DNA of 32,236 nt from Chloroflexota bacterium (GTDB lineage Bacteria; Chloroflexota; Dormibacteria; CF-121): positions 1 to 32,236 of the forward strand of contig VBEE01000045.1 in the NCBI GenBank assembly GCA_005881715.1, in the 5' to 3' direction. How positions within the stretch are numbered: the stretch's first letter is position 1; every line of letters starts with the position of its first letter. Shown one piece after another: positions 28,825 to 31,412 of the stretch. The notes beneath the pieces were generated by a model, which was not told the origin of the DNA, made no database searches, and saw only the letters and a program-made list of their open reading frames with translations. The position numbers and the translations under genes are program-made.

Positions 28825-28971
28825 CTGACCTGCCCGGATTGTACCCAGCGAGGGTCTGCCTAATCTCGTGGATACCCTTCTGCCGACTCGTGGCCGGCTC
28901 GTCACTCTGCGTGAAAGGATCGCGCACAGCCAGTCGTTTCACCTGCATCGGGGAGCCCCCCGTGGACGACC

Positions 28972-29121
28972 ATGCTGGAAGAGCCACAGCGACTCACGAT
29001 GTCGGATGTCTTCAGCCTTTTCGGCCGCCAGGCCGAGGATACCCGCTGGGTGGCTTCGGCGGATTCGCAAGAATACCTGGCCGTCGTCCTTTACCTAGTT
29101 CAGCGGAACAACGGCCGCTGA
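28972..29121 (+). CDS. small protein A of tandem paralogous pair (49 aa; not in ORF track)
   Basis: MLEEPQRLTMSDVFSLFGRQAEDTRWVASADSQEYLAVVLYLVQRNNGR*; strong similarity to the ORF at 29188-29328. Confidence 0.75.
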   Translation: MLEEPQRLTMSDVFSLFGRQAEDTRWVASADSQEYLAVVLYLVQRNNGR

Positions 29122-29187
29122 GGCTGGCGCCGCCTACGCCACTTGTGATACTCTTCGTGTTAGGTTAACTACAAACTAGGTATCAAC

Positions 29188-29328
29188 ATGTCTGAGAAGC
29201 TAACGTTGAGCGAACTCTTCGCCCTCTTCGGACGGACGACGGACGATACCCGGTGGGTGGGTTCGGCCGATTCCGAGGAATACCTGGCCGTGGTCACCTA
29301 CCTCGTGCAGCGCTCGAGCACCCGCTAA
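29188..29328 (+). CDS. small protein B of tandem paralogous pair (46 aa; not in ORF track)
   Basis: MSEKLTLSELFALFGRTTDDTRWVGSADSEEYLAVVTYLVQRSSTR*. Confidence 0.8.
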   Translation: MSEKLTLSELFALFGRTTDDTRWVGSADSEEYLAVVTYLVQRSSTR

Positions 29329-29437: not shown

Positions 29438-29629
29438 ATGATCACACTGCTTGCTGCACGCATCCGGATGCTCTTTGGCTGGCGTGACAGTGAGAATGGC
29501 CAGGCCCTGATCGAGTACTCCCTCATCATGTGCTTGATCGTCATCGTCGTGCTGGTGACACTGATCGTCCTTGGCAACCAGGTGCGGAACACCTACTGCA
29601 ACATCCAGGGCGCCGTCATCGGCGCCTAG
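29438..29629 (+). CDS. Flp/Fap-type (type IVb) pilin
   Basis: DSENGQALIEYSLIMCLIVIVVLVTLIVLGNQV: prepilin-peptidase-like G/QALIEY site and hydrophobic helix; upstream GAGGTAAG. Confidence 0.88.
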   Translation: MITLLAARIRMLFGWRDSENGQALIEYSLIMCLIVIVVLVTLIVLGNQVRNTYCNIQGAVIGA

Positions 29630-30236: not shown

Positions 30237-30257
30237 GAGGGCGAAGGAGATTTTACC

Positions 30258-30300
30258 GCCTCTCTCCCTCCCCCGCTCACGGGGGAGGGTCGGGGCGGGG
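30258..30300. repeat. palindromic GC-rich element of the ccctcccccg-ctca-cgggggaggg type
   Basis: Perfect 10-bp inverted repeat 30266-30275/30280-30289 with a 4-nt loop followed by gtcggggcggggg. Confidence 0.65.
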
Positions 30301-30381
30301 GCATGTGCCGTTTAGCCGTCGTCGATTGGTCCGTGCGACCGATTCACACGCTCGACCCTGGCCCTAGGCTTGCCGCAAAGG

Positions 30382-30545: not shown

Positions 30546-31412
30546 ATGCATGACGAGGGCCATATATCATTGCCGGCTCTCCAGTCGGACCTGAGCCAGC
30601 AGCCGCAGGTCCAAATCCATGGTGGCCGGTCCGCAGCGCGACGCGCGATGGCGGCCGGAAGAGAGGGGTTAAACATCGTCAACCGCTACCGGATTCTGAT
30701 CGTCGACGACGACGCCATGGCCCGGGAGATCCTCAAGCGGATCCTCGAGCACGCCGGCTATGAAGTCATGACGGCGGGCAGCGGACCCGAGGCCCTGCGC
30801 AAACTGCACGAGGGCATCCCGCACCTGGTCGTCGTCGACCTGATGATGCCGGAGATGGACGGCTTCGAGCTGTGCCGCCGGATCAAGAGCCACCTCGACG
30901 TCCCAATCGTGATCTTGAGCGCCGTCGCCGCGGTTGAGAGCAAGGTCGAGGGCCTGCAGATGTACGCCGAGGACTACATCGTGAAGCCGTTCGAGAAAGA
31001 AGAACTGGTCGCCCGGGTGCAGCGCGTGCTGCGCCGCTACGGCGAGTCCGCCGGCGTCGAGCAGCCGGAGGTCGTCATCGATCAGGATCTACAGATCAAC
31101 TTCGTGCAGCATTGGGCTCGGGTCAAGGGCCAGCAGGTGACCCTGACGCCGACCGAATCCAAGCTGCTTTTCCTCCTGGTCCGCAACGCCGGCAGGGTCG
31201 TCACCAACGAGACGCTCCTGGCCAAGGCTTGGGCCGGCGACGAAGAGGCGTACGAGGAAGGGCTGCGGGTGCACATCTCGCGGTTGCGCAGCAAGATCGA
31301 ACCAAATCCCAGCAAGCCGGTCTATATCCAGACCAAGCGCGGGGTCGGCTATCGCTTCGGGGCCAAGGTCAACTATCCGGCCGGCCAGGAGCCGATGGCC
31401 CTGGCGGGATGA
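30546..31412 (+). CDS. OmpR/PhoB-type response regulator with winged-helix output domain
   Basis: RILIVDDDAMAREIL, VVVDLMMPEMDGFEL, AEDYIVKPFEKEELV, LTPTESKLLFLLVRNAGRVVTNETLLAKAW, VHISRLRSKIEPNPSKPVYIQTKRGVGYRFG. Confidence 0.96.
   Translation: MHDEGHISLPALQSDLSQQPQVQIHGGRSAARRAMAAGREGLNIVNRYRILIVDDDAMAREILKRILEHAGYEVMTAGSGPEALRKLHEGIPHLVVVDLMMPEMDGFELCRRIKSHLDVPIVILSAVAAVESKVEGLQMYAEDYIVKPFEKEELVARVQRVLRRYGESAGVEQPEVVIDQDLQINFVQHWARVKGQQVTLTPTESKLLFLLVRNAGRVVTNETLLAKAWAGDEEAYEEGLRVHISRLRSKIEPNPSKPVYIQTKRGVGYRFGAKVNYPAGQEPMALAG

Follow-up and report, generated by a model that had tools for sequence, protein, structure and literature searches.

Sda is an antiparallel two-helix hairpin that binds the DHp domain of a histidine kinase; among kinases DegS belongs to the HisKA_3 class, and among regulators DegU belongs to the NarL-type class. 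In Bacillus, two proteins of 46 amino acids modulate kinase activity: Sda inhibits KinA and KinB (PMC8534201), and DegQ stimulates DegS (PMC8515880). In a global catalogue of small open reading frames, more than half of the families that have at least three members are confined to a single genus; because lineage-specific small families are so common, the existence of a further one is in itself unsurprising (PMC11364881).

Here we add a well-supported, unnamed small-protein family, represented by two genes, A and B, in a 32,236-nucleotide stretch of Chloroflexota DNA (the window). Both genes had fallen below the open reading frame cutoff used in an earlier, sequence-only reading of the window. 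The data directly support the existence of the family, how strongly it is conserved, the ancient duplication, its range, and the separate upstream elements; its function can be proposed only with low confidence. Like the lineage-specific families of the catalogue, A and B are conserved, unannotated, and found in one lineage; unlike the genus-specific ones, they belong to a family that spans four genera and includes ordered, anciently duplicated paralogs. Its copies occupy distinct contexts, and one immediately follows a kinase-regulator pair; the family therefore provides a concrete, testable starting point for the study of small-protein regulation in soil bacteria of an uncultured lineage.

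A and B are equal in size to Sda and DegQ and resemble Sda in being soluble and all-helical, the helices of A and B being predicted. One paralog group adjoins a histidine kinase, as might be compared with the action of Sda on the kinases KinA and KinB, and the classes of its neighbors, a NarL-type regulator and a HisKA_3 kinase, are those of DegU and DegS. The A/B model, however, runs from a short helix through a turn and second short helix to a long helix, in place of the Sda hairpin, and Foldseek listed no Sda entry for this model, the packing of which is only moderately confident. Membership of the Sda family by sequence was rejected (hhalign probability of 0.1 against the Sda sequence 1pv0_A and no Pfam match). 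A relation to DegQ was sought through Pfam and NCBIfam only and gave no match, and the likeness in gene cluster architecture is one of analogy. In all, known kinase modulators gave no profile or fold match to the family (Pfam, NCBIfam, hhalign against Sda, and Foldseek).

Coding status and range of the family

Gene A (positions 28972 to 29121, forward strand) encodes 49 amino acids and has an internal in-frame ATG at 28999; gene B (29188 to 29328, forward strand) encodes 46 amino acids and is about 80 to 100% identical in 17 genomes. The two proteins are 65% identical over 43 residues. Both open reading frames and translations match the sequence-only reading exactly, and the core motif that it described as shared is correct. 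That reading also proposed protein-level selection after duplication, and the substitution pattern agrees: within the window, A and B differ far more at synonymous than at nonsynonymous sites (pS, 0.50; pN, 0.18), and the mean pN/pS among orthologs is 0.073 for A (16 genomes) and 0.070 for B (17 genomes), far below 1. All orthologs used have an open frame 0; the remaining frames are broken to different extents, with frame +2 the least affected. Because the ortholog pN/pS is near 0.07 and the frame is open in all orthologs compared, A and B are, by their pattern of sequence evolution, real genes and not chance open reading frames. The copy of A in genome G004 (L063:5830-5931) has a disrupted N terminus, replaced or frameshifted, through either assembly error or decay.

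B-like proteins are present in all 18 sampled genomes of the window's bacterial family, which represent four genera, and in none of the 92 other sampled genomes of the class. With B as the query, all 18 genomes of this GTDB-style family gave matches and 83 other relatives gave none. Profile A1, run against 110 genomes of the class, recovered the same 18 strongly (best matches all at E values of 1e-25 or below), and the best match outside them had an E value of 0.003. In a search of 400 phylum genomes, scores came from the window's family alone, besides two chance-level matches in long frames; these, in G049 and G295 (frames of 364 and 1091 codons; per-genome E values of 0.003 to 0.007 with about 500 genomes searched), were rejected as chance. 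In the genome collection, 27 of 27 loci came from Chloroflexi soil metagenome-assembled genomes. A class with four families and genomes of soil origin would agree with the description of Limnocylindria in PMC13212565, a tentative placement. Searches of viral contigs, phages, and plasmids gave no match to the family, nor did searches of Pfam, NCBIfam, PHROGs, PADLOC, and PDB sequences, in keeping with the earlier statement that no named family could be recognized; homologs do exist outside this locus. Of the outcomes that the sequence-only reading had named as refuting its view, a lack of homologs beyond the locus and a dN/dS near 1 are thus both contradicted. Judged by these searches, the small-protein family is new to the libraries covered and restricted to one bacterial family. 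A 17-residue match to the C-terminal end of the family, lying in a 23-codon frame (G008:C160:17594-17644), is possibly a remnant copy.

Gene order, paralogs, and genomic contexts

The order and strand of rlmN, a metallopeptidase gene, A, B, a pilin gene, and the genes for a hexapeptide protein, a response regulator, and a GDT1-like protein are kept in 17 genomes, contig ends aside. The putative neutral zinc metallopeptidase (PF04298; 28108 to 28818, reverse strand) is divergent from A. In 2 of the 17 loci (L057 and L047) no metallopeptidase match is found at this position, yet A, B, and the upstream element of A are kept. At an E value of 1e-10, 15 of the 18 family genomes match this metallopeptidase, and 0 of 92 other class genomes do. 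Downstream of B lie the Flp-type pilin gene (29438 to 29629, forward strand; 63 amino acids), a conserved neighbor, and, at a distance of 1.2 kb, the gene for an OmpR-type response regulator (30546 to 31412, forward strand), which is 84 to 99% identical across the family and is a possible partner of A and B.

The sequence-only reading described A and B as a tandem paralogous pair. They are indeed paralogs, but the pair undercounts the family: a search of the window's own genome gave four copies, namely A, B, and single copies on contigs C30 and C51, and related genomes carry 1 to 5 copies in total, with up to three paralogs besides A and B located elsewhere in the genome. The order A-B is fixed in 17 genomes. 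In a tree of the paralogs, which rests on few columns and has many open forks, A, group C, and group D form separate clades (94/98, 100/100, and 90/87, respectively). Because the A clade has members from all four genera, the tree places the A-B duplication before the divergence of these genera, and it is in this sense ancient. Group C paralogs (the copy on C30, L033:8059-8216, and L071, L072, L074, and L075) have no in-frame ATG, GTG, or TTG just upstream of the core; a conserved CTG stands about 9 nt past a TACACT/TAGAAT −10-like box, which suggests that these copies start at CTG or are leaderless. In this group, the synonymous sites of several core codons are nearly invariant between genera.

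The dispersed copies occupy varied surroundings. In G011, one paralog group lies on the same strand as, and 40 to 60 nt behind, the genes for a NarL-type regulator and a PAS-GAF-HisKA_3 kinase, and G010 and G012 have the same order of NarL regulator, HisKA_3 kinase, and paralog, likewise on one strand. Within the window's family, this kinase is found at high similarity only in these three genomes; a roughly 50% relative occurs in two more, without a further small-protein copy to match. Another dispersed copy in G011 lies near a NarL regulator, a copy in G015 is separated from a response regulator-kinase pair by about 1.5 kb and an HNH-type gene, and a copy in G017 lies behind a topoisomerase IB fragment. 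In four genomes the group C copy is flanked by moaA and rpiB, and in a different genus it precedes rpiB. A response regulator was present within 2.5 kb in 4 of approximately 10 distinct contexts, versus about 9% expected for a random gene (nominal P of about 0.01 for a comparison chosen after looking, with two contexts cut by contig ends).

Predicted fold and possible function

AlphaFold2 models built from the alignments of this analysis place helices at residues 7 to 13, 22 to 26, and 29 to 45 of B (pLDDT, 80.8; pTM, 0.53) and at residues 10 to 16, 26 to 29, and 32 to 48 of A (pLDDT, 80.7; pTM, 0.58). The two proteins are predicted to share one three-helix mini-domain shape, with the helix packing tentative because the spread of the five models is moderate (65 to 81). 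Foldseek searches of the PDB and of viral models returned nothing below an E value of 1 (best PDB match, 6.9). The invariant residues are A27, D28, E31, L33, Y38, and V40. Of the most conserved positions, T6-x-x-E9 and D28-x-x-E31 would form helix-capping boxes at the predicted helix starts, and the others are mainly hydrophobic, with a few arginines. Because these motifs resemble capping boxes and the remainder resembles a core, the conserved residues look structural and offer no obvious catalytic set, and for this reason we read A and B as small regulators that probably bind another protein. As the sequence-only reading had anticipated in calling them a small soluble family, GRAVY is negative for nearly all members and no transmembrane stretch is present; net charge is mostly negative, with a pI of about 4.6 to 6 for most members.

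The fold (from AlphaFold2), the binding role, and the signaling partner are what we infer from these data. The explanation that we tentatively favor is that A and B are lineage-restricted, soluble, mostly acidic helical mini-domains that would act through partner binding and not catalysis. Each would begin with a short helix, continue through a D-x-R-W-V turn with a second short helix, and end in a long C-terminal one. The partner would most likely belong to a signaling pathway, and the foremost candidates are two-component kinases or response regulators. This idea arises because one paralog group follows the NarL regulator and HisKA_3 kinase in three genomes; position and analogy point to two-component signaling as the best present guess at the partner, and the analogy suggests that A and B would act in the manner of Sda or DegQ, as modulators of two-component signaling. 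The paralogs would keep the fold but be controlled by different promoters, and the partners or conditions that they serve would probably differ as well. Speaking against a signaling role, the response regulator association consists of one clear gene cluster plus looser neighbors, and the well-conserved group C copy lies beside moaA and rpiB with no signaling gene. A more specific proposal, that this is a stand-alone adaptor mini-domain with a fold of its own, several paralogs of which tune different two-component systems within one uncultured Chloroflexota family, is unlikely.

A serious though less probable contender is a function tied to a lineage-specific housekeeping complex (e.g., the ribosome, RNA polymerase, or metabolism), with the dispersed copies as specialized duplicates. 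Such a role would suit the universal presence of these proteins in the window's family, a conservation exceeding that of the adjacent metallopeptidase, and the location of group C, which in two genera precedes rpiB and other genes of housekeeping type. Against it, copy number varies and so do the contexts, a pattern expected of a modular regulator more than of a fixed subunit. It is distinctly improbable that A and B are small DNA-binding or transcription-modulating proteins with a MerR/excisionase-like helix-turn-helix start (L-T-x-x-E-x-x-x-L-F-G): the N-terminal half resembles such a motif by eye and three helices are predicted, but Pfam gave no helix-turn-helix match even at an E value limit of 10, most members are acidic, the models have no wing and a second helix of only 4 to 5 residues, and Foldseek gave no match.

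The sequence-only reading suggested a functional link to the downstream gene, which it described as an orphan Flp pilin. The pilin is an orphan locally, but genomes of the window's family have 5 to 10 Flp pilin matches each. Were A and B accessory or regulatory factors of the adjacent Flp pilus, one would point to the A-B-flp order, which is found in 17 of 17 genomes examined and includes G015 with its divergent pilin; Flp pilins (PF04964) adjoin A and B at every one of these loci. Yet rlmN and the genes for the hexapeptide protein, response regulator, and GDT1-like protein, a block of unrelated genes, are equally syntenic, no pilin lies near any of the dispersed paralog loci examined, and the pilin gene has its own conserved upstream element. 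Because Flp pilins occur in 108 of 110 class genomes, while A/B-type proteins occur only in the 18 of the window's family, the distribution of the pilin does not follow that of A and B, which, unlike pilins, have no hydrophobic segment and no pilin motif. The proposed link thus found no support; the pilin is probably just a conserved neighbor, and a role of A and B in the pilus is very unlikely. Least credible is an antitoxin, bacteriocin, or mobile-element gene, for which small size and several copies would speak; PADLOC, PHROG, phage, plasmid, and viral-contig searches gave no match, vertical synteny is stable over four genera, and no cognate toxin-like neighbor was seen in the contexts examined.

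Upstream elements and RNA at the locus

Upstream of A, at positions 28911 to 28943 of the forward strand, lies a conserved element, GTGAAAGG-N(16)-CGTTTCACC, whose exact form occurs once in the genome. The same element with a spacer of N15 to N18, or a near variant, is found upstream of A in most genomes, and the strict element occurs once each in 4 of 5 genomes scanned. We regard it as a putative promoter or operator. One reading makes it an ECF-like promoter (TGAAAG-N17-CGTT); the other, a set of TTTCAC/GTGAAA half-sites. The palindrome TTTCAC-N5-GTGAAA was also considered as a regulon motif and rejected; each genome contains it at few sites, in some cases in numbers close to those of the reversed control, and we therefore claim no regulon.

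By eye, the A-B intergenic region (29142 to 29187, forward strand) contains a conserved TGTGATA-type extended −10-like element followed by TAGGTATCA just before the start of B, which suggests that B has its own promoter. The gap between B and the pilin gene holds a conserved CGTTAT...CATACTC element, and B and the pilin gene each have a conserved upstream block of their own. Because each of the three genes has its own conserved upstream element, A, B, and the pilin gene look separately promoted. A consensus (sigma-70) promoter and terminator scan found none at the locus, so these remarks on promoters rest on conservation across genomes.

Among structured RNAs at the locus, only a tRNA-Leu scored above its cutoff. 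A sub-threshold Rfam match (34.8 of 71 bits) covers a hairpin-like CCCTCCCCCGCTCACGGGGGAGGG stretch at positions 30254 to 30303, and a CCCTCCCCCGCGAGCGGGAG stretch of similar look precedes the group C copy in L033.
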